Positions 44,967-64,000 of a stretch of DNA of 64,000 nt are shown in pieces (the stretch's first letter is position 1; each line of letters opens with the position of its first letter). Position numbers and translations under genes: made by a program. The notes beneath the pieces were generated by a model. The model was not told where the DNA came from and made no database searches. It saw only the letters and a program-made list of their open reading frames with translations. This stretch comes from Synechococcus sp. ROS8604 (GTDB taxonomy: Bacteria; Cyanobacteriota; Cyanobacteriia; PCC-6307; Cyanobiaceae): the NCBI RefSeq assembly GCF_014279655.1, contig NZ_CP047946.1, forward strand, positions 1,798,001 through 1,862,000, given 5' to 3'.

Positions 44967-45047
44967 GAGCTACCAAATCAGCGCCCAAAGCGCGACGTTT
45001 TCGATACAGAGTGTTACAGTACAAACACCTTCAGGTGCGGTAATTCC

Positions 45048-46740: not shown

Positions 46741-46775
46741 AACTCCGGCTAACACCATCCCTTTTGATTCACGTC

Positions 46776-47096
46776 ATGACGCAAGTTGACTGGCCTTCCA
46801 CAGAAACAGAAATCGCTCGTAAAGCTTTCCACAAAGGCAATGAGCGCGCGGTGACTGTTTTAATTGGTGTGATCCAAACCAAGAGTCAATCCCTGAACTC
46901 GCTGGAATCAGTTTGCTCACTTCACGATTATCTCAGCACTGAAAGGTACGAGATCGAAGGGAGAATGGAATTCAACTACGACACGATCCTTTTCTGTCTC
47001 GCAGAAATGATGAAAAGAAATCTCATTGAAGCAACAGACCTACAGGGTTTAGACCCCAAAAAGGTGTCAAAGATTAAAGCGATGTCCCTCTTTTGA
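46776..47096 (+). CDS. frp: Fluorescence recovery protein
   Basis: A 106-residue helical protein that detaches activated OCP from phycobilisomes and speeds its return to the orange form. Matching features are MTQVDWPSTETEIARKAFHK, the LHDYLSTERYEIEG segment and the end LDPKKVSKIKAMSLF. The ATG given matches family starts better than one 12 bases earlier. Third gene of the ocp operon, 35 bp after crtW. Confidence 0.93.
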   Translation: MTQVDWPSTETEIARKAFHKGNERAVTVLIGVIQTKSQSLNSLESVCSLHDYLSTERYEIEGRMEFNYDTILFCLAEMMKRNLIEATDLQGLDPKKVSKIKAMSLF

Positions 47097-47209
47097 ATAA
47101 AAACTAGACTTTTTACCAATACGAAAGCTCCTTATATCAATATTTTTAACTTAGAACAGTTGATGCAATTATTCATGGATATTACTTCGTTAAGCTTGAA
47201 ACAAATACG

Positions 47210-47377
47210 TCAACGAACTTCTGATTCAGTCTCATTTTCACTTGAAGGACCCTGCTCAAGTTTCCTCTGTGCCTTTGCAGCTTTCTTCAAGATTTTTTGT
47301 GCCTCCCCTCTTGTGAGGCACTCCTCTGCCCGAGATTGAAGCTTATGGAGCTTTCGATGCTGCTTAGCGGGGTTCAT
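47210..47377 (-). CDS. Small helical protein
   Basis: A 55-residue ORF, MNPAKQHRKLHKLQSRAEEC onward, a charged helix with an acidic end. It starts 3 bp after the upstream gene on the same strand, so the two likely form one transcript. Confidence 0.6.
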   Translation of the reverse strand: MNPAKQHRKLHKLQSRAEECLTRGEAQKILKKAAKAQRKLEQGPSSENETESEVR

Positions 47378-47380
47378 CCT

Positions 47381-47524
47381 TTACCTATCCATATACCTTT
47401 TTAACATTCTCTGAGCCGCAGTGGCAACTGTGTGGTTCATATCGGGATTAGCCAACAACATCAGTAACCATCTGAGCTCAGAAGCCACATTGCGACGGCC
47501 TTTCAAAGCATGCTGCAACAGCAA
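47381..47524 (-). CDS. Small helical protein, start uncertain
   Basis: A 47-residue reading from a TTG, containing ALKGRRNVASELRWLLMLLA and a basic helix. The open frame continues upstream but would overlap the TauE-type gene. No family recognised. Confidence 0.45.
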   Translation of the reverse strand: MLLQHALKGRRNVASELRWLLMLLANPDMNHTVATAAQRMLKRYMDR

Positions 47525-47537
47525 GTAAACAGATGCC

Positions 47538-48377
47538 GTGGTGCCTTGGTGGGATATTCCGCTCTTGATCAGCCTCGGACTCTTGGCAGGAGGGTTGGCT
47601 GGATTGTTAGGAATCGGCGGTGGTCTCATTTTTGCACCGGTTTTGCTCTGGCTCAACCTGCCTCCTCATCAAGCGCTCGCCACTAGCAGCTTTGCCATTG
47701 TCCCCACCGCTCTAGCAGGGACAATCGTCCATCTTCAAAGTGGAAGCCTGCCAACACGATCAGCCCTAGCCATCGGCTTAGCAGGATTCGGATCAGCATT
47801 TTTATTTGGAGGGCTTGGTGGCCTTGCCGCTGGATGGGTGCTGTTGGCAATGCAAACAGCGGTCTATGTGTTGTTGGCCTTTTCTATCAAAGAGCCGCCA
47901 CAAGCTGAGGAAGAGGCTGGAGAAGAAGAGAACCAGGAAAAAGAAGAGGAAAAAGAGCCACTTTGCTTGGAAACGGAAGAAACCTCCGCGCCCCTGCTGG
48001 CTGGTGTGGGCTGCATCGCCGGCTGGACAGCGGGCATGCTTGGTCTTGGTGGAGGACTCGTGCTCGTCCCACTGATGAGTGGGCCTTTTTCAGTCCCGAT
48101 CCATCAAGCCATTCGACTCAGCACCGTCGCAGTGTTGTGCTCAGCGAGTGCAGCATCCCTGCAATTTCTGCATGAGGGCCGAGGCATTCCTTGGATGGGA
48201 CTCACGCTGGGAAGTGTGGCAGCACTGGCGGCCCAATGGACAGCAAGGCGCCTCGATCTTTTTGATTCGGCTGTGTTGGTTCGTTGTCTACGAGGACTGG
48301 CCATTGTCTTGGCCGTCGATAGCAGCCGACGAGCCATTCAACTTGTCCTGAGTCAACCAAACATGTTCATGCACTAA
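47538..48377 (+). CDS. TauE/SafE family exporter with acidic loop
   Basis: A 279-residue membrane protein with two repeats of four segments. Each begins with the family glycine motif: GLLGIGGGLIFAPVLLWL and GMLGLGGGLVLVPLMSG. Members export sulfite, sulfoacetate or related anions. Between the repeats is a loop with about 17 Glu in 30 residues (about 118-148), unusual for the family. The start is one of two GTG codons. Confidence 0.88.
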   Translation: MVPWWDIPLLISLGLLAGGLAGLLGIGGGLIFAPVLLWLNLPPHQALATSSFAIVPTALAGTIVHLQSGSLPTRSALAIGLAGFGSAFLFGGLGGLAAGWVLLAMQTAVYVLLAFSIKEPPQAEEEAGEEENQEKEEEKEPLCLETEETSAPLLAGVGCIAGWTAGMLGLGGGLVLVPLMSGPFSVPIHQAIRLSTVAVLCSASAASLQFLHEGRGIPWMGLTLGSVAALAAQWTARRLDLFDSAVLVRCLRGLAIVLAVDSSRRAIQLVLSQPNMFMH

Positions 48378-48507
48378 GAGACAGACCAAAGGAGTGAGTG
48401 CAACTCCAGAAGTCTCAGGTTTCATTCATATTCAACTGATCCTTCAGAAAACTCTAAGAACAACAAGATTCGGCTTAATATTATTTCTAAAAGAACACAT
48501 CCGATGC

Positions 48508-48681
48508 ATGAAAAGCGCTCTTAAGGGGTTTCATTATGGCCATACTGAACACAATCAGCTTCGCCAGCTCATTGCATCCACTATTGTGATCGGAGTAATT
48601 GCACCAGTCCTGACGGCAGTTTCTCTTAGCCAAAAGCTGTCACCTTCACCGACAGAGACGAAGAATTTTCAACTGTGGTAG
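48508..48681 (+). CDS. Small membrane protein
   Basis: A 57-residue ORF, MKSALKGFHYGHTEHNQLRQ onward, with one membrane segment (LIASTIVIGVIAPVLTAV). An open frame upstream is not protein-like. Confidence 0.45.
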   Translation: MKSALKGFHYGHTEHNQLRQLIASTIVIGVIAPVLTAVSLSQKLSPSPTETKNFQLW

Positions 48682-48763
48682 TCGAATGGACTAAGGAAAC
48701 GGGGCAGCATCTTGCAAATTCCTCTAAATGAAGAGAGAATAGAAAGATAGCCGTCAAAGACAA

Positions 48764-48925
48764 ATGAGCAACGAGTCAGAAAAAAACAAAGAGTATTGGA
48801 TCGATGAAATCGCTTTCCTGGAAGCGAGACTGAATGGAAGCCAAGGGGATATCGATTCCGAAGATCGATCTGCTTGCGAAGAGGCGCTTAAAACAGCAAA
48901 AACAAATTTTTCCGCCTACAAGTAA
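48764..48925 (+). CDS. Small acidic protein
   Basis: A 53-residue ORF, MSNESEKNKEYWIDEIAFLE onward, with a helical, acidic composition. Family unknown. Confidence 0.58.
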   Translation: MSNESEKNKEYWIDEIAFLEARLNGSQGDIDSEDRSACEEALKTAKTNFSAYK

Positions 48926-49216
48926 TCATACGAAGGACAAAAGCCAAGCATACAATTCAGCAAGAAGCAATTACTAGGAATTCAAGCATCAACTTGGCAG
49001 CAAAAACAAAGTCATCAATAAAAGCAATTGCATTTTCATTGATTCACCTAGACATCAATACCAGGACACTTTGTTCCAACAAAAAATCACTCAACCTTCA
49101 CCAAAAAGCTCTTCTAACGGTGCCTCATACCACGACATTGACTGACAACCTCAAGAACAAAGGTTCAAAGAAGCACCTCACTGCGGCATGGTGAAGGTCT
49201 GCCCCCACTCCATGCC

Positions 49217-49720
49217 ATGCTTCGGCGCTCTTTGACTTCCATCCTGATCGCAGTGTGTTTGCTGATCGGGACGCCCGTGCTGGCCGCAGAGCTGCGGTTG
49301 ACTGACGTGGCCTTAGCTCCCTGCGATGCCAATGATCCAGGCGCACAACCAGGTCAGGCGCTTGGAAATACCCGCAACAACATCACAAGTCCAGAGGGCG
49401 CTAGCTGCTACGTCCTGAGCGGAACGGTCGTGAATCCCAGCAAACGCGCTGTCGTGGATACGGATGTTTATGCACGCATTCTTGATCGAAGCGGTGAGCC
49501 AGTGCTTCAAAACCGCACAAGGGTTGGGTCTATTGGAGATGTTGAGCCAGGGTCGCAAGCGTTTGCCCTCCGCCTCGCCGTTCCCAAAGGCACTCCAGGC
49601 CCCTTTGATGTCAAAAACCCAAGAGCACGCGGATTCAATGCTCCTGTCCGTAGTCGTGCGAACGACGACGATGAATTGCTACCACTCGAACAGACTGTGG
49701 TGACGGCTACGGTGGATTGA
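49217..49720 (+). CDS. Secreted protein, unknown
   Basis: A 167-residue protein with a signal peptide (residues 1-23, cleavage after VLAA) and a beta-rich domain. The middle (CYVLSGTVVNPSKRAVVDTD, then VLQNRTRVGSIGDVEPGSQ) has the pattern of a small immunoglobulin-like fold used in extracellular proteins. Two cysteines (APCDAN and ASCYVL) may pair. A small membrane gene follows 3 bp later. Confidence 0.8.
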   Translation: MLRRSLTSILIAVCLLIGTPVLAAELRLTDVALAPCDANDPGAQPGQALGNTRNNITSPEGASCYVLSGTVVNPSKRAVVDTDVYARILDRSGEPVLQNRTRVGSIGDVEPGSQAFALRLAVPKGTPGPFDVKNPRARGFNAPVRSRANDDDELLPLEQTVVTATVD

Positions 49721-49723
49721 AAA

Positions 49724-49900
49724 ATGCTCACACCGATCAGGTCTGGAATCACGTTGCTGGGCTTAATGGCATTGATGTTGCTCATCAGCTCGAACCCAAG
49801 AACCGTAAATCGAGACGCCCCTCTGCGTTCCCTGAGGGACAATCGAATGATGCCCCGCAACAGCATGCGACGCCTCAGGGAACAACGGATTCGAGACTGA
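49724..49900 (+). CDS. Small membrane protein with basic tail
   Basis: A 58-residue ORF, MLTPIRSGITLLGLMALMLL onward, with one membrane segment and a very Arg-rich tail. It starts 3 bp after the secreted-protein stop, so it is likely coupled. Confidence 0.6.
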   Translation: MLTPIRSGITLLGLMALMLLISSNPRTVNRDAPLRSLRDNRMMPRNSMRRLREQRIRD

Positions 49901-49960
49901 GTTGCAAATCATTGAAGGAAACTAGCCTTGATTGATAAGCATTAATTTGTTGATCCGAGT

Positions 49961-50620
49961 TCAGTTGATCTCAAAGAGCGAGCCCTGAATGGACGATGGA
50001 GAGGGCTCATTCCTGCGCCGTTGAATGGGGTCCACCTTCCAACCTTGAGGATCCCAACCCATCAGGAGTGGTTCTAAAGCCCTTAGGTCATGCCCATCAG
50101 CGACGGCTAACCACGCCTCTTCCAGACCATCCGGAATTAACACAGGCATTCGATCATGCAGGGGTTGAATGAGAGCATTCGGCGCAGTGGTGAGAATCGT
50201 GCAGGTATCAAGTTCACTCCCATCCGAACCAAGCCAGCGTTCCCACAATCCAGCGATCCAAAAGGAACGTTGATCAAGACGGCTTACAAAATAATTTTTC
50301 TCGAAAAATCCAGTGGCTGGGATTAAACATCGCCGATGGCGCCAAGCCGCTCTGAAGCTTGTTTTGTCAGCAACAGTCTCAGAGCGAGCATTAATGGGTC
50401 TAGGTCCAGTAGAGGGGTCTTTCGCCCAGGAAGGGATCAACCCCCAAAGCATGAGCGCAGCTTCGGTTTTGCACTCCTCTCGACGCAATCCCAACACCGG
50501 TTCAGAAGGGCGTATGAGCTGCCGGGGCGCGTAGCGCGCGAGATGCACATCAGACATCCGCTCCCGTAGAACCTGCGGGAGCTGAAGAGCATCGGCAGTA
50601 AGGGCAAAACGACCACACAT
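49961..50620 (-). CDS. SRAP (YedK/HMCES) DNA-protein crosslink protein
   Basis: A 219-residue protein that covalently traps abasic sites in single-stranded DNA. The start is fixed by the catalytic Cys2 after Met removal: MCGRFAL. Other active-site parts are WGLIPSWAKD, PINARSET, ATGFFEKN and LHDRMPVLI. All are present. The usual GFYEW is GFFEKN here. It is divergent from a small membrane gene. Confidence 0.93.
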   Translation of the reverse strand: MCGRFALTADALQLPQVLRERMSDVHLARYAPRQLIRPSEPVLGLRREECKTEAALMLWGLIPSWAKDPSTGPRPINARSETVADKTSFRAAWRHRRCLIPATGFFEKNYFVSRLDQRSFWIAGLWERWLGSDGSELDTCTILTTAPNALIQPLHDRMPVLIPDGLEEAWLAVADGHDLRALEPLLMGWDPQGWKVDPIQRRRNEPSPSSIQGSLFEIN

Positions 50621-50820
50621 AACACCCATCATCTAAGTCTGATGGCATGGGTGAGGGAAGACATCAATCAAAGATCTCACGGATGAGAGATCAAACTCGT
50701 CAGAATCGAAGTTCGTTTGTAACCGAGGGAATGCTGTTACTTAATCCGTTTTGCCTGATCCGTGCAGGCCAGGTAGCTGGTCTTAAAGCCACCATCGTGA
50801 TCTTGATGATGATGTTGATG

Positions 50821-50958
50821 AAGTCCAAGCTTCTGCGCGTGAAGATGTCGCTTCTTGGCTCCTTGATTGGTTTCACTCTGTTGGTTGGCTTCCTGCTCAC
50901 CACTGGCGTGCTGACGTTTGTTGCAGGTGGAGCCGTCGTCTACGCAGCAAAGAAATAA
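50821..50958 (+). CDS. Small membrane protein
   Basis: A 45-residue reading, MKSKLLRVKMSLLGSLIGFT onward, with one long membrane segment and a basic end. The open frame extends upstream with more hydrophobic sequence, so a longer form of 75 residues is possible. Start uncertain. Confidence 0.5.
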   Translation, partial: KSKLLRVKMSLLGSLIGFTLLVGFLLTTGVLTFVAGGAVVYAAKK

Positions 50959-50970
50959 CGATTGGATGAA

Positions 50971-50992
50971 GCCTGTTTGAAGATGAACAGGC
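50971..50992. terminator. Hairpin after small membrane gene
   Basis: GCCTGTT, 8-base loop, AACAGGC, lying between the small membrane gene and the convergent acetyltransferase. No T run, so only a possible terminator. Confidence 0.4.
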
Positions 50993-51008
50993 CAAAGTGC
51001 CGTACCAC

Positions 51009-51887
51009 TCAACCCAACTCCAAACAGGCAAGAGCAAACACATCATCTAAAGCCAGTTTCGGCAGATCACCTCGATACATCCGCATGGTTTCTGACTCAG
51101 TCTTAAAACCCAGACCTGCCATGAGCCCCTTTGCAGCAACGTTGAAACCAGGGGTATCGATCAACAGCACCCCTGGATGGCGTTGCTGAAGCTTTTGAAT
51201 CAGATACACGGCTAACCCAGGGGAATCGGCGAGCAGGGGACCGATGCGCCAGCCTTCATCGTCTTGCAAAAGGCATGGGCGAATGCGACCAAAACCATGA
51301 CAGTTTCCGTTCTCATCCAGGAGAGCAAGAACTTGACCCGACGGATGTCCAAGCCAATCAGCAAGGAAATGAGGCCTAGGACTGGGCTCTCGTTGGGCGT
51401 CGTACAGCTGAACAGCCTCTGAGGGAATATGGCTGCCCTCCAGCACATGCAAACCGGTTGGAAGTTCCCCCCTCAAGTCAATGGCGTGGCCCTCGTTGAA
51501 GCAACGCCAACGGGTGGTTAACGAAGATGATTCAAATCCCCATCCCGCATAGTCCAAGATTCGAGCAGGTGCTGCCTCCAATCCAATGCAGGTGAGATCG
51601 GAAAGGTGATCGAGAGCATGCTTCCAAAGCTGTCGGCCATACCCGTGACCTCTCTGATGGGGCACGACGAGATACAAGCCAATAAATCCGTAATCAGGGT
51701 TGTACCGGACGCCTGCAATGCATCCAATCGGCTCGTGATCAAGCCAGGCAATCCACAAGCCTTGACGATCCGTGTGCCGATAAATCTCTATACCTCCAAG
51801 ACCTGGAGCAAATCCCTCACGACGGGACCAGTCGGTCACGATTGGAATCTGATCTGACTCCAATTCGCGAATATCAAGACACCCCAT
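51009..51887 (-). CDS. GNAT acetyltransferase, two-domain
   Basis: A 292-residue protein. The N-terminal half is a GNAT domain with the acetyl-CoA loop VVPHQRGHGYGRQLW at about residues 75-90. The C-terminal half (VLEGSHIPSEAVQLYDAQRE onward) matches the second domain found in YitH-type acetyltransferases. Substrate unknown. The start chosen is MGCLDIRELE; an upstream ATG 30 bases away is possible. Confidence 0.87.
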   Translation of the reverse strand: MGCLDIRELESDQIPIVTDWSRREGFAPGLGGIEIYRHTDRQGLWIAWLDHEPIGCIAGVRYNPDYGFIGLYLVVPHQRGHGYGRQLWKHALDHLSDLTCIGLEAAPARILDYAGWGFESSSLTTRWRCFNEGHAIDLRGELPTGLHVLEGSHIPSEAVQLYDAQREPSPRPHFLADWLGHPSGQVLALLDENGNCHGFGRIRPCLLQDDEGWRIGPLLADSPGLAVYLIQKLQQRHPGVLLIDTPGFNVAAKGLMAGLGFKTESETMRMYRGDLPKLALDDVFALACLELG

Positions 51888-51943
51888 CAAACCAGCCAAA
51901 ACGAGGCACGCCCTCAATCATGGGGAACAACACGCCCAAGCAC

Positions 51944-52129
51944 TCAGAATTCATTCTTGAATATTCGCTCCAAGTCTTTTCGAAACTGTTGGGAGCTCAG
52001 GGGCAGAGCTTTTTGACGCGCTGAGTTTCTAAACAGCAAGGAGCGAATCCACCAGATTTGAAGAACTGCTAAGAAAAACCCCACAATCAGCAGGCTGACC
52101 GTGGGGGAATCGAGAGGAACGTATATCAA
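51944..52129 (-). CDS. Small membrane protein
   Basis: A 61-residue protein, MIYVPLDSPTVSLLIVGFFL onward, with one membrane segment and a basic tail. It is divergent from another small membrane gene only 20 bp away. Confidence 0.68.
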   Translation of the reverse strand: MIYVPLDSPTVSLLIVGFFLAVLQIWWIRSLLFRNSARQKALPLSSQQFRKDLERIFKNEF

Positions 52130-52149
52130 AGTGACACTGATCGAGCAGG

Positions 52150-52317
52150 ATGGAGTCTGATTGGGACAGAACCTTGCGCGAAATGAGTGTGGCCGAACTG
52201 TTACTCCGCAACGTCGGAAAGTTTGCAGCCGTGTCAGGGGTGATCGGCGTTGTGATCTGGTTGAGCTGGGTCATGCTCGATGTTAAACACCTTCAGTCGG
52301 GATTTACCCTTCCTTGA
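52150..52317 (+). CDS. Small membrane protein
   Basis: A 55-residue protein, MESDWDRTLREMSVAELLLR onward, with one membrane segment (AVSGVIGVVIWLSWVML). Family unknown. Confidence 0.64.
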   Translation: MESDWDRTLREMSVAELLLRNVGKFAAVSGVIGVVIWLSWVMLDVKHLQSGFTLP

Positions 52318-52328
52318 GCACCTAAAAT

Positions 52329-52808
52329 TTATGCGACACCGTCGGATATCACGGTATCGATTGGACCGGATTGCTCACGCTCTAGCTCTGGACTAAAGCG
52401 ACGAACAATCAATTCATCGATGGCTAAGCGTCCGGGGCCCATGGCCAGAATCGCCACAGCGGAAGCAAAGTAAAGACCTAATAATTCCAAAAGATAGATG
52501 TTGAAACCAGCAGTAATGATGGCGTGATAGATAGCGACCGAAATCGTGCCCATGATCGCAAGGGCACCAAAACGCGTCAGAAACCCCGTAATCAACAACC
52601 AGCTCCCAATAACCTCGGAAAACGCTGCGATGTAAGAAAGGAGAATGGGAAAAGGGAGATGGAGAGGCCGCACAAATGCATCAGCAAAATTTTCGATATT
52701 TGCCAACTTCTCATATCCGTGATGGATAAGAAGTGTTCCGGTGAAGACTCTCAGAATCAAAATTCCAAAATCGGAAAGGAACGGTTTTGTCGCGAGAGTT
52801 CTCAACAC
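52329..52808 (-). CDS. DoxX family membrane protein
   Basis: A 159-residue protein with four membrane segments and DoxX motifs: ILILRVFTGTLLIHHGYEKL and AAFSEVIGSWLLITGFLTRFG. The family is linked with quinone or sulfur redox chemistry in some bacteria; the role here is unknown. Stands alone. Confidence 0.9.
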   Translation of the reverse strand: MLRTLATKPFLSDFGILILRVFTGTLLIHHGYEKLANIENFADAFVRPLHLPFPILLSYIAAFSEVIGSWLLITGFLTRFGALAIMGTISVAIYHAIITAGFNIYLLELLGLYFASAVAILAMGPGRLAIDELIVRRFSPELEREQSGPIDTVISDGVA

Positions 52809-52954
52809 TGGAATTTACGTTTCTCAACATACCTTAATGAAAAACAGGGTCTCTCGCGAAAAGCAGCCCAAAAACGGCCCGATTTAGGAATAAATACTCA
52901 CTTGCAGGTCAACGAGCGAATGCGCCATGATGAGATTGATATCAGTCTATTGAC

Positions 52955-53068
52955 ATGTCAAACGAAGCTTTGATCACCCTCTTCCTTGGTTTTGGCGCCG
53001 CCGTCACAAGTCTCACCTTTTGGAAGCTGAGCCAAGCCCAGACTTCCGATAATTCCTCTACTCTCTGA
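52955..53068 (+). CDS. Single-pass membrane microprotein
   Basis: A 37-residue ORF, MSNEALITLFLGFGAAVTSL onward, with one membrane segment and a Ser/Thr tail. Family unknown. Confidence 0.58.
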   Translation: MSNEALITLFLGFGAAVTSLTFWKLSQAQTSDNSSTL

Positions 53069-53109
53069 AGCAGTGTTGATCAAGCTCTCTTCCTTACCGT
53101 TCTGAGTAG

Positions 53110-53529
53110 TTAGTCCACAAATCTCTTGTAAAGCCAGCGTACAAACCCTCCAAGTACTGGAACAGGACCAAAGGTGGGGCCAACGAAATCAAAGTAATCT
53201 CTATGACTTACAACTTTTCCGTCCGCGTTGAGTTCTAATCGAGAAGCACCGGGATAAATAAACTCAATTCCCTTAATTTTCAATCCCATTTCCCACTCAA
53301 TAAAAGCAATATTTTCATTGATGGCGATTGCTCCAGGCACAAGATAGATGTCATCGCAACGCTTCATTAACCTATCTTGTGCTGCGATATAGGCATCAAT
53401 GCCATGACGCTCTTGCGTTGGATCTTGAAAACAAACTTGTTCGTCATACAACTCTCTCCATTGAGACTCCGTTGGGGCTGGTTTTCCATATGGTTTCGTA
53501 AACAGTGCTTTTAAACGGTCGGAATCCAT
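53110..53529 (-). CDS. NTF2-like (SnoaL-type) protein
   Basis: A 139-residue protein with the cone-shaped NTF2-like pattern: an N-terminal helix (WRELYDEQVCFQDPTQERHG), a helix around AYIAAQDRLMKRC and strands IAFIEWEMGLKIKGIEFIYP and VSHRDYFDFVG. These folds bind small hydrophobic molecules or act as isomerases. No catalytic residue can be assigned. Confidence 0.85.
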   Translation of the reverse strand: MDSDRLKALFTKPYGKPAPTESQWRELYDEQVCFQDPTQERHGIDAYIAAQDRLMKRCDDIYLVPGAIAINENIAFIEWEMGLKIKGIEFIYPGASRLELNADGKVVSHRDYFDFVGPTFGPVPVLGGFVRWLYKRFVD

Positions 53530-53612
53530 GGGTTCGGGCTTAAGGGTGTCCTAAGCCTATGAAACGAAGCTGAATCTCTGCATAAAATCAATTTTGAATT
53601 GATAGAGCCCCT

Positions 53613-53831
53613 TTGTCACGCCAAAATTTCCAGTACGAACCGTTGGAAGCTTTCGGCGAGGGTCTGACCACGAAACGCCCATGGAATCAAGGATCTCTGG
53701 GTTTTGTTGAGCGTCTCAACGGGCGTGTGGCGATGTTGGGTTTTATGGCTGCCATCATCGGGGAGCTGATTAGTGGTCATGGACCTGCAGGCCAAGTCGT
53801 AGGCATGATTCGCTGGTATCTGTCTTTGTAG
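53613..53831 (+). CDS. hli: High-light-inducible protein
   Basis: A 72-residue single-helix thylakoid protein. The chlorophyll-binding motif E-x-x-N-G-R-x-A-M-x-G-F is complete at about residues 33-44, followed by the membrane helix AAIIGELISG. Such proteins bind chlorophyll and carotenoid and protect photosystems under stress. The start is TTG. It marks the host-like edge before the AT-rich island. Confidence 0.93.
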   Translation: MSRQNFQYEPLEAFGEGLTTKRPWNQGSLGFVERLNGRVAMLGFMAAIIGELISGHGPAGQVVGMIRWYLSL

Positions 53832-54654
53832 GCTGAGTAGCAAGAAGATCATTATTGGAATAAAATATTCTTGAACGACATCCAATAAAATATTCAAATT
53901 TAAAGAAATCGCTAAATCAAAAGCTTTCAATCACTTTAGGGAACCTCCAGCAATCCACCGCCACGGGATCAAACAGGCTCAGCAGAGTTTGTCTGTATTC
54001 CCATGCCTAACAAAACTCTGCCTCTGGACTGGGTGTAAACAATTCGTAATCGACTATGGAGTCAAGCGGTAGAGGAATACCGCCAAATTCCAGAGGAAAT
54101 GGGATCGTTGGATCACGCCACCGAGGAGGAGAGAGTAGCTATTGCTAAACGGAACAACAATCAGCAGCAAATCGACCCTTAGGAGTCAACTATCGAGGCG
54201 ATTCTTGATATTTCAAGACGAGCGGGCAATCTTGCATTGGCGTTGAATTTCATTCTCAATCACTTGAAGATTCCACAACCGAAGCAAAATAATGGAATCG
54301 CTTACCGTATTCGAAGCATCAACGAAAATCGAATGCACTGGCAAAAAGCACGACGCCGCCCAAGCCATGGATTTACAACAGTCTCTCATTTTTACCACCT
54401 GAATAACGGATAACTCTGTTATACACACCGAAACCGTTATTCTTTTCCTACTTATAGACCTACAACAGCAAATGATAATAAAATATCTAACTTTTCAGAA
54501 ACTTTGGTCATTTCGATGTGTACGGCATGAAAAACGGATTAGATTTATTGGCATCATTGGATATATCTATAAACACCGCGGTGTTTATACGGGGTGTAGA
54601 GTCTGTACAAAGCTTTGCTCTCAAAATCCTCAGCCGATGGGGAATCAAAACGTT
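53832..54654. other. Left part of an AT-rich island
   Basis: No complete gene is supported. A frame at about 54037-54183 reads WSQAVEEYRQIPEEMGSLDH and 27 more residues but lacks a start, so it is probably a remnant. A GCAGAGTTT/AAACTCTGC stem-loop with a 22-base loop is at 53982-54021. Two copies of AATAAAATATTC lie near 53860-53900. Confidence 0.5.
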
Positions 54655-55719
54655 TTACTTAGTTGTCTCTCCCAATAATTTCGCAACTTCCAAGCCCTCC
54701 TTAACCGCATCGACTGAAATTCTCTCATCTACCTCTAAATCCTGGCATTTATCTAGAAATTGAACTAACCGCTTAAGGTTAGGTTTTAAAAACTTATTCC
54801 AAGCTAATTTTGCTTGGAGCGGACCAAGTATCTGATCACGCTCTAAACGGTCATAATGGATGGAAGGTGGTAAAAAGTTATTATTGGTCAAGCTTGATGT
54901 AAATCTGCCATTAGCGGCTTTACATGCTGCGTAAATTTCAGGCCTATAGATACGTTGAAAAGTTTCCATAACAGCAACCAGTGCCACCAAGTCCCGGCCA
55001 GGGCGATTCAGTAGATCTCCCAGCTTGTAGTAAAAAGCTAGGGGTGCTTGAGTACCAGGTGGTTGAAAGTAGCTTACTTCCAGCCCCATACAACCAAAGT
55101 ATCTGTCTGTGAGAGAGGATGGACCAAGCTTTTGATATTGTTGTCCTAGTATTCGATGAGTAAACTCCTGCGCATCATAGGTATTGTTTGTTGATACGCT
55201 TAGTGCAAATATACAGGGTATATCGAGTATGCCACCTTCGGCCCAAAAGTCACGGAACATCATCCGAAATAAAAGCCCGTGGAGCTGACCAAAGGTATTC
55301 ATCTTGCTTTTTAATCCCCTCACTTTTAGAAGAGAGGGGAGAAGAATATTGAAATCGTAATCTCGAATATAAGAAGAAAAGTTAAATCCAATTGGGCCGG
55401 CACACCTCTCTCCTGTTCGCCTGTGTTCAAAGGCAGAGGATAGAAATTCGGCGATTGGGAACGGAGGAGATGAAGCATCATCGAAGTATGCGAATACCGT
55501 CACAATATCCAAGCGCAGGAGATATTCATTGCTGCCAATCATGCCTGAGCGATACAGCGATTCATATCGTCGATCTATCTCTGCAAGAAGACAACCTAGA
55601 TTCTGTTTACGTGTAAACTCATTCTTTGCAAGATTGACGTAATTAGTGGTACAGCGCGAATAAGATGCGGGAACATAACTAAGATTAAACGGGGTTGTGC
55701 AAATTTTAAAGCGCAACAT
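54655..55719 (-). CDS. DUF1852 (MesX-type) protein
   Basis: A 354-residue soluble protein matching DUF1852 along its length. Typical segments are TRKQNLGCLLAEIDRRYESL, NFSSYIRDYDFNILLPSL, QLHGLLFRMMFRDFW, LSVSTNNTYDAQEF, YFQPPGTQAPLAFYYKLGDL and METFQRIYRPEIYAA. In proteobacteria this family (MesX) is needed with MesD for a folate-independent methionine synthase. No MesD is in this window. The composition is more AT-rich than the host, suggesting transfer. Start: ATG, or TTG 15 bases upstream. Confidence 0.88.
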   Translation of the reverse strand: MLRFKICTTPFNLSYVPASYSRCTTNYVNLAKNEFTRKQNLGCLLAEIDRRYESLYRSGMIGSNEYLLRLDIVTVFAYFDDASSPPFPIAEFLSSAFEHRRTGERCAGPIGFNFSSYIRDYDFNILLPSLLKVRGLKSKMNTFGQLHGLLFRMMFRDFWAEGGILDIPCIFALSVSTNNTYDAQEFTHRILGQQYQKLGPSSLTDRYFGCMGLEVSYFQPPGTQAPLAFYYKLGDLLNRPGRDLVALVAVMETFQRIYRPEIYAACKAANGRFTSSLTNNNFLPPSIHYDRLERDQILGPLQAKLAWNKFLKPNLKRLVQFLDKCQDLEVDERISVDAVKEGLEVAKLLGETTK

Positions 55720-56283
55720 CTTAGAAGGTATCAATTTTTAAAGAACAATGCTTAAGGATTCTGGTGGGGAAGACCTTTTTGTATTCGATAATCTGTTAAA
55801 CATTAGCTAGCATAGCTAGAATTCATCGAATACTGGCGGCATAGGAAGAAGAGTTGATTATTTCTTGATCGTCCTTGGTTGCAAGATGACGCAGTTATGA
55901 GTTTTGCAAATAATGCTAATAGATAATAGACTGCAGAGAATAGAAGTGTTCGTAAGATCAGCAGGGTAGATTTTTAATGTGGACAGCGACACTGTAAACA
56001 AAGGCATGAGAGTCACGAAGACTTATTGATGAACAATGTTCTACGAGCTATTTATGTATTTTAAAAATAAAATATTTTACTGCCTCAGCTGCTGTGTATT
56101 TGTATTTGTGTGTGTGGGAGGGGGCACACTAAGAGAATTCTGAATTGCTTTAAGGGGGCTGCGGAAGAGATGCCAGAATCGAAGACGTATATTCCCAAAT
56201 ATTTAGCGACTCTCATCTAGAGCTAAAGATTACACTGCTACAATTACGACTGACCAAAAAGGTCTCATGGCTCATGATTTTTC
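55720..56283. other. AT-rich intergenic stretch
   Basis: No gene seen. It separates the divergent DUF1852 and transporter genes and may hold both promoters. Confidence 0.45.
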
Positions 56284-57216
56284 ATGTCATCAAAGCGACA
56301 ACTTAAATTGCAAGGGCAAACTTCTAAAACATATAGACAAAAGCTAACCCTCAGGTGCCGATACGCTTTTTACCTCCTCAACATTCTGAGTTATGTCTGC
56401 GTTCTAGCTTTTAATAAGCTAGCACTCGAAGAAGTTGATCTTATTTCCCACAACGTCATAGTAATAAGTAGCTCTGCATTAATCTGCATCGTCTATCTCG
56501 TTTTCAATGGCAAATCAGTTTGCCATGAGGTCTTCAGCGCATCCACCAAGGTTAAATGGCTGTTTTTTTTATATGCACCGGTAGCGACAATATTTCCAAT
56601 CTACTGTTTAGCCTACTCTCAGCAGCGCATACCTCTGGGTGTTTTGAGCTTCCTATCCGTTGGCTATTTTGCTTTTACTCATATTTGGTCTCATTTACTT
56701 GGTGTTAACACGCTTTACCGGCATGAGGTGCTCAAAATTGCCTGCGTCTTTGCAGCAGCGGCAATGTTTTTTAGAATAAGCTTCAAACCCGAAATAGATT
56801 TTCTTTTAGGCCTTCTGTCTGCGCTAATGTTTGCCATTTTAGTCGGATTGTCTCATGCACTGGCTGGAGTTATCCGTAAGGAAAGCCCGCTGGTAACAGG
56901 TTCAACAATTGCGGTACTCAGATTGTTTCCAGCAGGAATCTATACGGTCATCTCTGCCATCATTCTTGGCATTGCAACACAATACTCTGCCTACTCCGCC
57001 GCTGCAGGGGTCGCGCTAGGAATTTTTTCATTCAGCCTTTATATCAGCGTAGCTTTAAATGGTGCTAATGAGACATCTACAACACTTGCGGCCTACCCCA
57101 TTCCCACCTTCATTATCGCGGTCATCTTTTTCAACAATACTTGGTCTACCGGACAGATTGCGGCGGGAGGCCTGATGTTGCTATCAATATTGCTCTTACA
57201 ACTAACTCAGGAATAG
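56284..57216 (+). CDS. EamA/DMT-type transporter
   Basis: A 310-residue membrane protein with about ten segments in two halves, as in the drug/metabolite transporter superfamily. The first half contains APVATIFPIYCLAYSQQRIP and the second AALNGANETSTTLAAY-like small-residue helices. Substrate unknown. Low GC and position next to the DUF1852 gene suggest they arrived together. Confidence 0.8.
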   Translation: MSSKRQLKLQGQTSKTYRQKLTLRCRYAFYLLNILSYVCVLAFNKLALEEVDLISHNVIVISSSALICIVYLVFNGKSVCHEVFSASTKVKWLFFLYAPVATIFPIYCLAYSQQRIPLGVLSFLSVGYFAFTHIWSHLLGVNTLYRHEVLKIACVFAAAAMFFRISFKPEIDFLLGLLSALMFAILVGLSHALAGVIRKESPLVTGSTIAVLRLFPAGIYTVISAIILGIATQYSAYSAAAGVALGIFSFSLYISVALNGANETSTTLAAYPIPTFIIAVIFFNNTWSTGQIAAGGLMLLSILLLQLTQE

Positions 57217-57496
57217 ATATAGGTTGACAACCTTAATACGAATGTTTATCTCCTTCATCTCTGATATTTGAATTGTAGAAATTTTTCAAAAAGAAGCGTA
57301 TCAAGACGTCCTTTGACTTACGGTCACCACAAAACATCAATACAAGTCACACTCTGCTTGAAATCAGTGGCCAAGTTTGGACAAGATCAGTATTTCTGAA
57401 TGGAACAATTTGGATTCTGAGATGAACATCAGAGAACCCAAAAGATTCATGATACAAAAACCTGTATTGATGACCCTCTCCGAGTCAATTCCATGA

Positions 57497-58405
57497 GAGA
57501 GAATTCGATCACTGCTTGAACAGAGATATAGAGATAAGCGAAAAAGCAATGCAGGCCGGAAAATGATTGATCCACTTATCTTCTTCAAAATGCTGGTTTT
57601 GCAACAGCTTTTTTAACCACAGTGATGCTGAGCTTGAATTCCCAGTCAGCGACAGGCGGTCCTTCGAGCAATTCATCGGACTTGGAGTGATGAACGCGAT
57701 TCCAGATGCAACAACCATCGCATTTTTTCGTGAACAGCTTCGTAAACCCGGCGTTATTGAAGAACTTTTCGATTGTTTTGAACAGCAACTGCGAGCTCAG
57801 GGCTTGGAAGCCCGCGATGGTCAGATTATTGATGCCACTCATATACCTGTTCCCTCGTAAAGAAATACTCGGTCTGACAATAAAATCATCAAGGAAGGGA
57901 ATCTGCCCAAGCAATTGGAGGCCAACCCAAGCCGCCTGCAACAAGGGATCTTGATGCTCGTTGGGTGAAAAAAATGGTGTCCATCATTACGGATATAAGA
58001 ACAGTCTCTGAAATGATTTAGATCACAGTTTCATACGCAGATACGTCGTTACCCCCGCCAATATTCACGACAGTCAGATGCTGATCCAAATTCTAGATCC
58101 GGAGAATAGAAATGACTTTGTCTAGGCTGATTTATGTTATACAGGAGAAAAGTTTGAGGGGTTATTGAAATTGGCTGAGTATTGATTTAATATCCATGAA
58201 AAAGTGACGAGGAATCATCCTCTCAGCGAAGAAGCTGCTATATGGAACAGGCTACGCTCAAAAGCAAGAGCTAGAGTCAAACATCTATTTGGAGTAATGA
58301 CAGTTTGTATGGGTAGAAAGATGACAAGAAGAATTGGATTGGCATGAAATCGGGCATGGTGGGGGCAGGAATTTGACATACAATTCTCTCCGATATCTGC
58401 TCTGT
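57497..58405 (+). pseudogene. IS5-family transposase remnant
   Basis: A degraded DDE transposase. Recognisable pieces, in different frames, are FNHSDAELEFPVSDRRSFEQ, FIGLGVMNAIPDATTIAFFR, EARDGQIIDATHIPVP, then DARWVKK, RRYVVTPANIHDSQ, RVKHLFGVMT and RRIGLA. At least five stops or frameshifts break it. The order and motifs match IS5-type elements. Terminal repeats are not clearly visible, so the element is dead and its ends are unknown. Confidence 0.85.
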
Positions 58406-58805
58406 ACTGGAAAGAAAATGTTTACTGTCTGATAGGATAATTCAACAGATGATGGAGTTCATTTTCCATTCGAACTTCTACTCCCGTACCGATGTAGGTT
58501 CAGAGAGCAGATGGGTCGTTACCTTGCTATTTACGAAGAGAATGGCAATATCAACATTCTTTTAATTTTTCCAGCGCAAGCAAGAATAAAACTTTGCTCA
58601 ATCAATTATATCTGAAGGTGCTACCATCAAGACAAAACAAGAGATTAAGACGCTTAGCATTGCAAAGCATTGACAATTTTTCATCTAAAAATCAATATTT
58701 ACCCCGATATTTTCCTTGCTTTCTGGATTAATTGCTCACTCAAGTCAAATTGTGATTTTCAGGATCACATCAAAGGGCTAATTATTTTGCAATCCAACCC
58801 CTCGG
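58406..58805. other. Right edge of the AT-rich island
   Basis: No supported gene. A 34-codon ORF at 58512-58616 (MGRYLAIYEENGNINILLIF onward) is possible but weak. GC rises again at the J-domain gene. Confidence 0.4.
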
Positions 58806-59150
58806 TCACGTCGCCAAAATGTCTGACATCTCAGGCTGAAGCAAAACGTCTCGAGCATTGTTTAGACGCGTCATTACATCTGGATCGCCACCCTTATCAG
58901 GGTGATGCTGCACGGCCAACGCTTTATGCACCCGCTTAACGGCCTGTTCCGTTAACCGACCGGAGAGAGCCAATCCCAGGGTCTGCCTTGCACAAATCGC
59001 TTCAAAATCTGGATCGCGACCCAGGGGCTGACGCTCACGACCGTGGTTGAAGTGACCTGGTTTGCGCTTGCTATTTCGGTTGCGCTTGCTCTCGCCAGCG
59101 TTACCAGTTCCGAAACCTGAGCCCCCTGGGGCCTCTTGAGCGCTTGACAT
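58806..59150 (-). CDS. J-domain-like protein
   Basis: A 114-residue protein whose C-terminal 50 residues form a J-like domain: VKRVHKALAVQHHPDKGGDP, then VMTRLNNARDVLL. The HPD tripeptide needed to stimulate Hsp70 ATPase is present. The N-terminal half is Gly/Arg/Lys-rich and disordered. The ATG is chosen because upstream residues are not protein-like. It is 63 bp after the GST gene on the same strand. Confidence 0.85.
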   Translation of the reverse strand: MSSAQEAPGGSGFGTGNAGESKRNRNSKRKPGHFNHGRERQPLGRDPDFEAICARQTLGLALSGRLTEQAVKRVHKALAVQHHPDKGGDPDVMTRLNNARDVLLQPEMSDILAT

Positions 59151-59213
59151 GGTGATGATCTCCCTTGACGTGCCAGCCTGCCGGATCGCGATCACCAAAG
59201 GCCAAGCAAGTCC

Positions 59214-60464
59214 TCACGGATTCAAAAATGGCCTGGGGTCTTGATCGAAACGATGCTCAAAAGGTGGCGGGGCTGGCTGCGCCTCGCCATCCAGAGCGGC
59301 AGTTGCTTCAAGGGCCTTCCTGAACAAGCGAGCACTCTGCAAAGGCATATCTCTCGGCACCGAAATGCGATCTCTCAAATAGCGCAGCCCGATTGCAGTA
59401 TCAGCATTTGGCTGGCAAAGCTTGCCGGCGATCAAATGGGTCAGTGCAGCCCGCAGGGGCTGATCAAAGGCAGCACCGAGGGGGTTCCTTGCTATCAGCG
59501 CTGCACGATGGCGCAACACTCTCTCCAGTGCCCTGTCTGAAGCCCGCACATCGTCGTCGCCTATCTGATCATTCCAGCTGGTTTCGAGTGCAGCAAGACC
59601 AGCACCTTGATCCACCGCCCGCGCCATCGCTTGCTGTTCTGGACGTCCATTGCTCCAACAACCACCCATTTGTGGAGGTAAGTCGTGGGCATGGGTATGA
59701 ACATCACTCTGGGTACCGCGATACGTCGCAAGCTGCTCCAGTGCGTTGAACCATCGATCGATTCCTGGATGCTCGTCACGTAAGGCAAAGCCCTTGAAGT
59801 AAGCCAAGGAGGCATTCATCCGCTCGACGTAAGGAACGAACACCAGATCTGCCGTTCCTGGATGAGCTCCACCCGGATGATCAGGATCAAGCCATTGGCC
59901 ACCGCCTTCTGCTAGTGCAGCCTCCATTTGACGGGCCACCGCCTGAAACTGTTCACGCGCTTGATCCTCCTGCCGATTGTTCAGCCTCGGTGTGCAGAGC
60001 CAAAGACACCAAGCGCGAAACAAAAGGCGTTCAAGCTCGCGCAACCGGCGCACACGTTTGTCGTGCATCCCTGCGCCAAAGGAGCCAAAGGCATGCTCCA
60101 ACGCTTCCAGGATGCGATCACTTTCTGTGATGAGTTGTCCATCCAACTCAAGGGCCGGAAGCATGCCTGAAGGCACCTTGGCGGTAAACCAGGGCTCTTT
60201 TGCCCCGTAGCAGCGCATGGTGACCTTACGAATCCGATAGGGAACTCGACGAAACTCAAGCCATAGCCATACTTTCTGGCAATAGGGGCACCAAGCGTGA
60301 TGATCACGAAACAACGTGACCCGCACATCTGACTCCGGCTGTCCAAACAAGCGCAATGTGGATTGGGCATTCGCAGGGCCTTCACATCGCTCCGCAGGGG
60401 CGGGAGCCAAAGCTTCCAACTGCTCCCAGTTCAGAGCGACAGCGTCAGCGAGCAGGTCGGCCAT
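59214..60464 (-). CDS. Glutathione S-transferase family protein
   Basis: A 416-residue protein with an N-terminal thioredoxin-like domain containing WCPYC at about residues 58-62, the proline VPSGMLPALELDG and the TESDRILEALE segment, followed by a helical GST C-terminal domain and an extra 150-residue region. The CxxC instead of a single Ser or Cys suggests a glutaredoxin-like redox role. Longer than common GSTs. Confidence 0.87.
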   Translation of the reverse strand: MADLLADAVALNWEQLEALAPAPAERCEGPANAQSTLRLFGQPESDVRVTLFRDHHAWCPYCQKVWLWLEFRRVPYRIRKVTMRCYGAKEPWFTAKVPSGMLPALELDGQLITESDRILEALEHAFGSFGAGMHDKRVRRLRELERLLFRAWCLWLCTPRLNNRQEDQAREQFQAVARQMEAALAEGGGQWLDPDHPGGAHPGTADLVFVPYVERMNASLAYFKGFALRDEHPGIDRWFNALEQLATYRGTQSDVHTHAHDLPPQMGGCWSNGRPEQQAMARAVDQGAGLAALETSWNDQIGDDDVRASDRALERVLRHRAALIARNPLGAAFDQPLRAALTHLIAGKLCQPNADTAIGLRYLRDRISVPRDMPLQSARLFRKALEATAALDGEAQPAPPPFEHRFDQDPRPFLNP

Positions 60465-60489
60465 AGCCCATGTTCAGATTGATTCATGA

Positions 60490-60726
60490 TCAAGGATCAA
60501 CCAGCCTGCGGTGGCTGAGCAAGGCATAATCCCGAGCCTCGGCTGTGATGTGCAGCATTGGCTCGCCGCCATTCAGCAACCAGATTTCAAGGCGAGCCTC
60601 ATCTGGGGCCTCAAAAAAGTAAACCTCAGACGGCATCAAAACTTTTTCACAAAAAAATTGATTCTCGCCAATACATTTGAGGATTACCATTTTTGATGAA
60701 TCGTTCCGATAACAACACTCACCCAT
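60490..60726 (-). CDS. DUF1830 protein
   Basis: A 78-residue protein with DUF1830 features: ILKCIGENQFFCEKVLMPSE, then YFFEAPDEARLEIWL. This cyanobacterial family forms a small beta domain of unknown role. It lies 26 bp upstream of the GST gene on the same strand. Confidence 0.85.
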   Translation of the reverse strand: MGECCYRNDSSKMVILKCIGENQFFCEKVLMPSEVYFFEAPDEARLEIWLLNGGEPMLHITAEARDYALLSHRRLVDP

Positions 60727-60862
60727 CGAAGAATTCCATCAGCTGATGCAGGAACATCCCCTGGAAATCCAATAAAAATTGTCTAGCTCAACACAAAACC
60801 AGATGCATCTTTAGATTCTTTTTATTTCCAATGCGACGATTGTCTTGCCCCAGCTTGCTTTC

Positions 60863-61336
60863 ATGAATTTCGCCATTCTCAGCGCGAAGGAGAGGGCTGT
60901 CCGCCTGAAAGGCACTGGCCTCGAAGGCGCTGATCTCCTGGGCTGTTGGCATCTGCAAACGGTTTGGGCCAAGGGAGCACAAACATCAAATCCATTCAGC
61001 AGCTGGATGCTGCGAAGCCTGGGTGCTCGCCTGGAGATCGAAACAGGTTTAAAGAACGACGGCAAAGAGTTGCGTCTCTCTAATGCCGTCAACTTGGGAC
61101 CTATTGAACTCAAATTTCAAGGTCTAGGGTCGTTGATAGGGAAACGCCCGCTGCTGAGCTTTCATTTCAACTCCCTCACCCTGCGAATGGGTGCCCTTGT
61201 CTTGCTCAAAAAAACACTACCCACTCCAGACCAAAGACGCACGCCATTTTTCGCTCTGATCGAACGCAACCCTGAAGGGTGGATGGCAGCTCGTGGACGG
61301 GGTGGCGGACTCGCGCTCTGGACCCTCAAGGATTGA
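60863..61336 (+). CDS. Fibrillin-like (PAP) family candidate
   Basis: A 157-residue soluble protein with a lipocalin-like beta pattern: LLGCWHLQTVWAKG, LGARLEIETG, ELRLSNAVNLGPIELKFQG and the end GWMAARGRGGGLALWTL. The order recalls plastid lipid-associated (PAP/fibrillin) proteins, but I hold this weakly. Convergent with the flavoprotein gene, overlapping by 11 bp. Confidence 0.72.
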   Translation: MNFAILSAKERAVRLKGTGLEGADLLGCWHLQTVWAKGAQTSNPFSSWMLRSLGARLEIETGLKNDGKELRLSNAVNLGPIELKFQGLGSLIGKRPLLSFHFNSLTLRMGALVLLKKTLPTPDQRRTPFFALIERNPEGWMAARGRGGGLALWTLKD

Positions 61337-61898
61337 TCCTTTGTTCTTGCCAATCGGTGGCCGATGTCCACACGCGTCGCAGGTGGGGGTGTGGCTTGAG
61401 ATCGAGCTGCTCAACCTGATGCAACGAAATCCGCAGCAGGCGCAAATGCTCTGGCATCGCTGAGTCATCTGACACCTCCTGAGGCCATGGCCCTTGAACA
61501 TCGAAAGGATCACCGGGAGGAGGCCAGGCCCAGACCGATCGCCCAGAGGGTGAGAGCTGCCTCCAAGACTGATCCAGTACCACAGGAGCCTCTCCGGGAG
61601 CGATCAGTCTTGCCGTACCACGAAGGCGAAACTGCTCGCGGGCCTTACGAAACAGCCAGCACAACTCCACCTCAGGCGTTCTTTGAATTTCGAGGGTCTT
61701 GTCGCTGCGGGCATCCGTGAGCAGATCCAGCGTCGCCGACGCACTCCAATCGCGAAAAACAAGCGTTCGTACCCGCGGGCAGCCATCCATAGCAAGAGTG
61801 GCAAGCTGCACCCAGCGACCACCCGGTGAGCGGCCTTCCCGCTTGCGCGCCGCAGACAACAGGGATCTCCAAGGAGGAAGCGACTGAGCTGCTTCCAT
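61326..61898 (-). CDS. PPOX-type FMN-binding flavoprotein
   Basis: A 190-residue protein of the pyridoxamine-phosphate oxidase-like fold. Features are WVQLATLAMDGCPRVRTLVF, DLLTDARSDKTLEIQRTP and LCWLFRKAREQFRLRGTARL, matching cyanobacterial FMN-dependent PPOX proteins. Substrate unknown. It is one base away from the peroxiredoxin-like gene upstream, so they form an operon. Confidence 0.88.
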   Translation of the reverse strand: MEAAQSLPPWRSLLSAARKREGRSPGGRWVQLATLAMDGCPRVRTLVFRDWSASATLDLLTDARSDKTLEIQRTPEVELCWLFRKAREQFRLRGTARLIAPGEAPVVLDQSWRQLSPSGRSVWAWPPPGDPFDVQGPWPQEVSDDSAMPEHLRLLRISLHQVEQLDLKPHPHLRRVWTSATDWQEQRINP

Positions 61899-61899
61899 T

Positions 61900-62595
61900 T
61901 CAGTGCTCGCTTTTCAACCAAGGGTCAAGAAAAGCGAGCGGATGGTTCATGGTTTCCGAGAAGCCCAAAATGCCCTGGTCTCGGTGGACATAAAGAACGG
62001 AATCATCCTCGTCCAACAGAAAGGTGCCGCCTCGCTGCGTGATGTGGGCGTTATTGGGTACGTAGGTACTCCACTTCGTCAGCACTTCGTTCATATTGCG
62101 AAGACGAACCGTGGCCAGCTCGAACGGACGCTGGAATCCGCTTCCCCCAGCCAGGCGAAACAGGGAAGAATCATCAAAGCGGGCGGGTGCGCTGCGATCC
62201 CCTGTGTATCCCCTTAGAACTTCAGCAAGCGTGCCCGGAGAGCCAATCCCCGCACACATCAACAACAGAGATGGCCAAGGGCCGCCAGCAGCCTGAAGAC
62301 CGGGTGAGAGACCAACACTGCGATGCAGCTCCGCATCAGGAACCACCCGAAGCTGAGACCTTGGGAATCCAGTGAAAACGCAGAAACGATCAGCACCTGC
62401 TTGATCACCGATTGCGATGGCCAAGGTCTTGATACCTCCCTGCTCCAAACGAGAGAGCGCAGGCACCAGGGCTTGGGCATATTCCATCGAGTCGAAATCA
62501 CCAAGCTGAGTGAACAGCAGCACCAAACGCTTGGCGCCTGATTCCATACCAGGGATCTGCTGGAGGTAGGCGAGTAAAGCTTCTGGTGCTTTCAT
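61900..62595 (-). CDS. Peroxiredoxin-like (AhpC/TSA) protein
   Basis: A 231-residue protein of the thioredoxin-fold AhpC/TSA-like family (KRLVLLFTQLGDFDSMEYAQ, then AGIGSPGTLAEVLRGYTGD). The usual peroxidatic TxxC is not visible, so catalytic activity is doubtful. Its operon partner is an FMN protein, suggesting a redox role. Confidence 0.83.
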   Translation of the reverse strand: MKAPEALLAYLQQIPGMESGAKRLVLLFTQLGDFDSMEYAQALVPALSRLEQGGIKTLAIAIGDQAGADRFCVFTGFPRSQLRVVPDAELHRSVGLSPGLQAAGGPWPSLLLMCAGIGSPGTLAEVLRGYTGDRSAPARFDDSSLFRLAGGSGFQRPFELATVRLRNMNEVLTKWSTYVPNNAHITQRGGTFLLDEDDSVLYVHRDQGILGFSETMNHPLAFLDPWLKSEH

Positions 62596-62975
62596 GTGGG
62601 ATTGAGCCTTAACAGAGCAGTTCGCAACTGAGGATCTAGACCCTAATCAAAATCTAGGCTTAACTTCAGATTTTAAAATTTCATGCGCGGGGTAAAGGGA
62701 GAGAAAGCCCTTAGCAAAATCCCTTCCATTCATTGTTGCAACATCAACAACAACCCAACAAAATCCGATTCCACACCAATAGAATCCAGCGCAATTCTAA
62801 GAGAATTCCAAGGAAATTGATTCCAGTGCAATCGAGTGGAGATCGACCAATCAGCGTCTGATCTCCCTAAGTTCATCCATCGAATAGTTCACAGAACTAT
62901 CGCTTCATTTCAGCTGACTTTGCTTTTTCCAATCCCTTCACCCCTGCCGCATCAGCACCCATCAAGGGAACGACA
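62596..62975. other. Intergenic stretch
   Basis: No gene seen. It contains several short imperfect repeats of ATTCCA and AATTC but nothing I can interpret. The promoter of the peroxiredoxin-like operon should lie at the left end. Confidence 0.4.
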
Positions 62976-63137
62976 TTAGGTCTCATCACTGCGACCACCA
63001 AAATCCGAGATCATCGACCGGATGGCTTCTTCAATGTCTAATTCTTCTAATCTCCACTGCTTGGAGGATGCGTTGGGGATGTCAATACGTTTGTAAATGT
63101 GACCATCAGTCACAAGGTACTGGCTGGGATCAACCAT
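62976..63137 (-). CDS. Small acidic protein
   Basis: A 53-residue ORF, MVDPSQYLVTDGHIYKRIDI onward, with a short beta pattern and an acidic helix. Family unknown. Confidence 0.62.
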   Translation of the reverse strand: MVDPSQYLVTDGHIYKRIDIPNASSKQWRLEELDIEEAIRSMISDFGGRSDET

Positions 63138-63346
63138 TTTCAGAGGTGACGATCAACGAAAGGTCTCCATTTTAATTTGATCGGACCATGCAGGAAGTCA
63201 CAAGGGTTTGTCTTGGGGAGCACATCAAAAGACGCTGGCCTCTCCAGCCCCCACGCACGATCACAAGCCTTAGCGAGCAGCCATTGGGGACTGCGATTCG
63301 AGTGCCGCGGAGCGATGATGACCTCTTCATGAATGCAGCATTCGGC

Positions 63347-63697: not shown

Positions 63698-64000
63698 TTG
63701 ATTTCGCCACACCTACCAGACAGCCAAGCGGTGGCCCACCCATCCCTTAGGGAGTCTTTGCGCAAACGGGTCTTGAGTTGTTCGCGGGATGCAGCCACTC
63801 TGCTTTCACCATGATTGGTCTGTAAGGGCTCCTTCTGGTGAATTTTGGCCCCATCCTCAGCGTTCTTGAGATCTTTTTTGAGGTTGAATCGTGCCGTTTA
63901 GGCACACCAAGCCCCTTGTCAGACTGACATGAGCAACTGGAGACGCGCTTGAAACAGGTTCGACAGCGCTGCCAAGACGTGGATCTTGCAGAGGTTCTAG
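63698..64000. other. Right end of window
   Basis: A minus-strand ORF beginning MAASREQLKTRLRKDSLRDG runs into the preceding gene and cannot be supported. Nothing else is clear. Confidence 0.35.

Follow-up and report, generated by a model that had tools for sequence, protein, structure and literature searches.

The gene at positions 54655 to 55719 of the window, by which we mean the whole 64,000-nucleotide stretch of Synechococcus sp. ROS8604 DNA that was analysed, is a real, acquired, and unpaired member of the MesX family; from sequence comparisons, it probably does something other than methionine synthesis in partnership with MesD. The features of the locus are as follows:

54655..55719, minus strand: MesX-family (PF08908) gene, intact, with no mesD partner; 354 codons plus stop; 250 bits; 85 of 117 conserved columns and 33 of 33 chosen core residues kept
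53820..58790, no strand assigned: AT-rich island of ~4.97 kb; none of the five genus relatives examined has it at this site
56284..57216, plus strand: EamA-type transporter gene (Pfam E value 2.6e-08), divergent from the MesX gene
57512..58365, plus strand: remains of a transposase, broken into three or more frame pieces, the middle one matching DUF772

When the window protein was compared with Pfam, the PF08908 profile (MesX, formerly DUF1852) matched it with an E value of 3.9e-74 at 250 bits (cut-off 25) and was covered from position 5 to position 320 of 323, that is, over nearly its full length. The motifs RDYDF, FGxLHG, QRIYRPEIY, and YDRxER were all present. A first-pass annotation made from the letters alone had called the product DUF1852 of the MesX type, and this profile match upholds the assignment; a search of NCBIfam with the same protein gave no match. 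The gene, with a GC content of 0.426, runs from an ATG at 55719 to a stop codon ending at 54655, and an in-frame TTG is also present 15 bases upstream of the ATG, at 55734.

The discoverers of MesX inferred that it supplies a methyl group to MesD by an oxygen-requiring step, perhaps with a flavin, and reported oxygen dependence for the MesD/MesX system (PMC7857596). In that naming paper, MesX is treated as the partner of MesD, its substrate and chemistry are left open, and MesX of S. koreensis by itself is described as failing to rescue E. coli deleted for metE or metF (PMC7857596). The DUF1852 gene of Acinetobacter baumannii is reported to be strongly repressed by B12, which fits a role for DUF1852 beside B12-dependent methionine synthesis in that organism (PMC12892962).

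In the loci sampled outside the cyanobacteria, the pairing is close to invariant. Among the best 80 of 125 related non-cyanobacterial loci, 79 had mesD within 500 bases of mesX, and in the sole exception (L086) the contig ended 12 bases after the match. These control loci came from proteobacteria, actinobacteria, and one metagenome-assembled genome labelled Bdellovibrionota, with two of them (L019 and L020) from a single genome; as they were collected with short peptide patterns taken from the window protein, they sample the families sharing such a peptide and not all MesX. In plasmid records, compared as totals and not matched record by record, we counted 208 with MesX and 247 with a MesD or MetE relative, 206 of the latter at 60% identity or more. 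Taking all 247, the two counts were equal in Pantoea, Acinetobacter, Agrobacterium, Rahnella, and Pseudoalteromonas, and the MesD/MetE count exceeded that of MesX by 1 to 4 in Acetobacter, Rhodococcus, Klebsiella, and Cupriavidus. The published count, made in the reverse direction, found MesX in 395 of 399 proteomes with MesD (PMC7857596). From the control, plasmid, and published pairing together we concluded that, at least within this sample, an unpaired MesX is a feature of the cyanobacterial group.

The pair was also seen in viral sequence. Querying viral contigs with the alignment returned two loci, both with mesD. These IMG/VR contigs (L122:4983-7019 and L123:4983-7015) carry adjacent mesX and mesD genes, the encoded MesD being 83% identical to that of Acinetobacter nectaris; tail sheath and tail tube genes lie nearby in L123, and in L122 there are frames with matches to large phage proteins. 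The window query also returned two records under the name Acinetobacter phage MD-2021a, which carry DUF1852. Phages may carry the mesX/mesD methionine pair as cargo. As for the window gene, a carrier of cyanobacterial or phage origin was considered and rejected: the window query found no relative among viral contigs, and the two contigs found with the alignment query both carry mesD.

We searched for MesD and MetE with PF01717, a profile of the catalytic domain common to both, which, when applied as a positive control to 14 bacterial and archaeal genomes, gave matches in 10. In the source genome of the window, a single contig of 2.88 Mb that is 99.97% complete, there was no match and not even a first-look candidate. 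The profile was likewise without a match in all eight MesX-bearing cyanobacteria (the window genome, six other members of its family, and G482) and in 11 genomes without MesX. Within the 17.5-kb window locus (L010), tblastn at an E value of 1e-3 detected no similarity to MesD. Thus, the window contains no MesD, as the first-pass annotation had stated, because the whole genome contains none, and the suggestion that a MesD might lie elsewhere in the genome is ruled out at the sensitivity of the profile. MetH-type proteins (PF02574), which that annotation had proposed looking for along with MetE, were found in all seven MesX cyanobacteria tested (all but G482), one per genome, in open frames of 1207 to 1279 amino acids; MetF (methylenetetrahydrofolate reductase) genes were found in all eight. 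With MetH-type and MetF genes both present, the usual methionine route appears to be complete, and MesX to be an extra. Candidates for another partner were considered as well. No conserved neighbor hinting at a new partner of MesX was found across the cyanobacterial MesX loci, and the EamA transporter had no similarity at an E value of 1e-4 in the other MesX loci compared, a set from which duplicates of stretches already present had been removed. A dedicated flavin reductase was rejected, since PF01613 matched in each of the 11 genomes searched, including three that lack MesX; every genome had three matches except G254, which had four, so nothing about them is MesX-specific.

The MesX gene lies in an AT-rich island, whose edges we placed where blastn similarity stops (counting only pieces longer than 60 bases) and which are therefore not mapped termini. 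The GC content of the island (53832-58788) is 0.411 versus 0.493 to its left (44000-53831) and 0.538 to its right (58789-64000), and the left flank stops at a short gene encoding a chlorophyll-binding domain. Five relatives, taken from 30 genomes of the genus (the source genome included) that have the right-hand flank gene, were compared at this site, and all five had both flanks at the same chromosomal position with the island missing. The closest of them, G231, matches the window flanks at 96.5% and 97.4% identity and has 1.1 kb unlike the island between them; in the other four the gap from flank to flank is about 0.24 to 1.4 kb. The presence of both flanks without the island, and with differing fillers, indicated that the insertion spot is variable. 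The stretch at the G231 site (L117:12835-13951) has a 181-amino-acid frame with no Pfam match. The island would most simply have been gained by the window lineage. Two modes of integration were considered and rejected: the window has no tRNA of any kind that could have borne the insertion, and only short, imperfect pairs of repeats were found bounding the island. G102, which belongs to a different genus, has an open DDE/DUF772 transposase frame ~1.9 kb away from its MesX gene; the transposase remnant in the window shares 61-76% identity with this frame, a relationship that suggests movement with insertion elements. In G102 (L011:7571-12856), the MesX gene is flanked to one side by an rve-type integrase frame and to the other by transposase frames of the IS66 and DDE/DUF772 types. 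The AT-rich island beside a transporter and a dead transposase, and the transfer that the first-pass annotation had supposed, are both borne out, by the base composition and gene pieces in the one case and by the island-free sites of the five relatives in the other. That the MesX gene itself arrived by horizontal transfer on this small, transposase-associated island is part of the explanation we favor.

MesX is rare in cyanobacteria. It was found in 1 of 31 genomes of the window genus, 7 of a sample of 400 from the family, 4 of 42 of genus g6 (G163, G262, G280, and G347), and 1 of 291 of the order of G482; a phylum sample of 386 genomes, which overlaps the family survey, contained two, one being the window genome. 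A wide vertical distribution in marine Synechococcus, which would have spoken against transfer, is excluded by the genus and family counts. Altogether there were eight distinct MesX-bearing cyanobacteria, six of which (the window genome, the four g6 genomes, and G102) have an intact gene. The gene of G482 (L104:8853-10771) is split by an insertion with IS630-type transposase domains, and that of G254 (L014:7269-7487) is a fragment of 73 positions with an in-frame TAG, corresponding to profile positions 2 to 74 only. As two of the eight copies are broken, the gene is easily lost. The four g6 genes share one gene neighborhood.

The closest relatives of the window protein are the MesD-less g6 proteins, at 49-52% identity, and it is 39% identical to the G102 protein. 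Its closest outside match among the best 80 of 125 loci was actinobacterial, at 45% identity, and its plasmid relatives were at most 43% identical among the matches listed. In an unrooted tree of 84 rows, the seven cyanobacterial rows fell on one side of a branch supported at 100/98 and recovered in 99% of bootstraps, and the sampled MesD-linked proteins formed a separate, compact group. The split was kept in reduced sets containing the window protein with two g6 proteins and G102 (100/100), two g6 proteins and G102 (100/99), or the window protein and G102 (92/94). Most branches within the MesD-linked group are far shorter than the cyanobacterial ones, and therefore the grouping of the latter could be due in part to long-branch attraction. 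The close proteobacterial relative that the first-pass annotation had envisaged was not found, and the idea of a transferred working pair is unsupported.

The residues of the cyanobacterial proteins also set them apart. As a reference we used the 117 columns conserved at 95% or more in 80 MesD-linked outside proteins (the best 80 of 125). The window protein keeps 85 of these columns and differs at 32; the six intact cyanobacterial proteins jointly keep 63, and all six differ at the same 18, for example (in window numbering) S124 to N, C172 to A, and N264 to A. Seven MesD-linked proteins held out of the reference kept 106-114 of 114-115 conserved columns, and at the 18 positions even the lowest-scoring outside protein of the best 80 of 125 matched 14. 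The broken G482 copy, aligned as fragments, departs from the MesD-linked residue at 16 of the 18 positions and agrees with it at 2, and it keeps 31 of 33 core residues. These 33 core residues, which we picked from the most conserved motifs, were identical in all six intact proteins; because the set was chosen by conservation, the result shows retention and is not a statistic. For conserved charged and histidine columns, the window protein keeps 17 of 27 and all six proteins keep 15 of 27, and the active site could therefore also have been altered. For the four g6 genes compared with one another, dN/dS was 0.23-0.32 over the core and 0.30-0.34 when the N-terminal extension was included; no value was obtained for the window gene relative to g6 or G102 because synonymous sites were saturated. 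A predicted model of the window protein, of high confidence (pLDDT 87.9, pTM 0.88), had no Foldseek match in the PDB, and none among viral models, at an E value of 0.001. In a second fold comparison the best Z score was 3.7, and ribosome-biogenesis, acetyltransferase-like, and MHC-like chains, with Z scores of at most 3.7, were rejected as noise. By sequence, solved structures included no relative at E values up to 1. The predicted fold does not name the chemistry of MesX; it is unmatched, and we do not claim it as a new fold.

The chief rival to the explanation that we favor is that MesX was acquired without its partner as useless cargo, owes its still-readable frame only to a recent arrival, and is heading for loss. 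The sister genome G231, so similar in both flanks and lacking MesX, the decayed transposase adjacent to the gene, the two broken copies among eight, and the sparse distribution in the family would all be expected of such cargo, and it fits the window copy taken alone. It does not fit the conserved g6 locus, where four genomes keep MesX in one neighborhood under purifying selection, nor does it account for a frame that is intact in six genomes with every chosen core residue in place. None of the eight genomes yielded a MesD, and the 18 changed positions are common to all six intact proteins; simple loss of the partner during this transfer therefore does not account for its absence. On balance we consider useless cargo rather unlikely. 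An oxygen-dependent, folate-independent side entry into methionine synthesis, in which the methyl product of MesX would pass to MetH or directly to homocysteine, has in its favor the kept core residues and the single MetH-type protein, bearing a homocysteine methyltransferase domain, in each of the seven genomes tested. Direct methylation of homocysteine is argued against by the reported failure of S. koreensis MesX alone to rescue E. coli (PMC7857596); that experiment hardly probes the route through MetH, because the medium as described contained no cobalamin (PMC7857596). MetF is present in all eight genomes, and 5-methyltetrahydrofolate is presumably made in the usual way, which also counts against a side entry, and we give it only a small chance. 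Profile searches can miss extreme divergence, and several of the other MesX genomes are drafts, so a MesD-like partner might be too diverged for PF01717 or might lie on a lost plasmid. Against this stand the performance of PF01717 in the control genomes, the lack of even a first-look candidate in the window genome, and the repetition of the absence in all eight genomes, two of them single contigs; such a partner is very improbable.

We propose instead, with confidence that is about evenly balanced, that the window gene belongs to a divergent and mobile MesX lineage without MesD, which would probably have oxygenase-type chemistry and deliver its product to something other than MesD. Of the three options that the first-pass annotation had left standing, namely an orphan remnant, a distant MesD, and another function, the last is the likeliest. 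MesX would keep an oxygen-dependent reaction, the oxidation of a small metabolite to yield a transferable methyl or one-carbon group, and the product would pass to an acceptor other than MesD or would itself be the end product; methionine would be made by MetH. Given how much of the core is retained, and that the searches turned up no partner, it seems likeliest that the reaction is of the same kind and either serves another acceptor or is an end in itself. The more specific proposal that the cyanobacterial branch is independent of MesD and carries out the same oxygen-dependent step as a free-standing reaction, with a different acceptor or pathway, is one that we hold tentatively and at somewhat less than an even chance. 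The window gene gives no evidence that a MesD/MesX methionine pathway was transferred.

In the literature searched, whose coverage excluded most subscription journals, we found no description of a MesD-less MesX branch. In a lineage that retains much of the MesX core and in which the searches found no MesD, the MesX reaction is set apart from the methionine synthase, and the lineage-specific changes point to positions that may serve only MesD. The intact cyanobacterial proteins allow the MesX reaction to be studied alone, and a free-standing reaction, if true, would provide a simpler system in which to find the MesX substrate. For genome annotation, a MesX match alone should not be taken as a B12-independent methionine pathway.

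Compared with the known MesD/MesX system, exemplified by ACIAD3524 of Acinetobacter baylyi (PMC7857596), the window protein belongs to the same Pfam family and shares its motifs; the Acinetobacter nectaris relative of ACIAD3524 (L079), which stands in for it here, is 41% identical to the window protein. Unlike that system, the window gene has no mesD adjacent to it or anywhere in the genome, and unlike the MesD-linked proteins, to which it is at most 45% identical among the best 80 of 125 loci, its product has 18 conserved positions replaced and lies on the opposite side of a supported branch. Like the MesX genes of g6 and G102, it is MesD-less, intact in frame, and on the same side of that branch, whereas its gene neighborhood differs from theirs, with no EamA relative beside those genes. 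The related transposase near MesX in G102 is the sole element common to the window and G102 loci.
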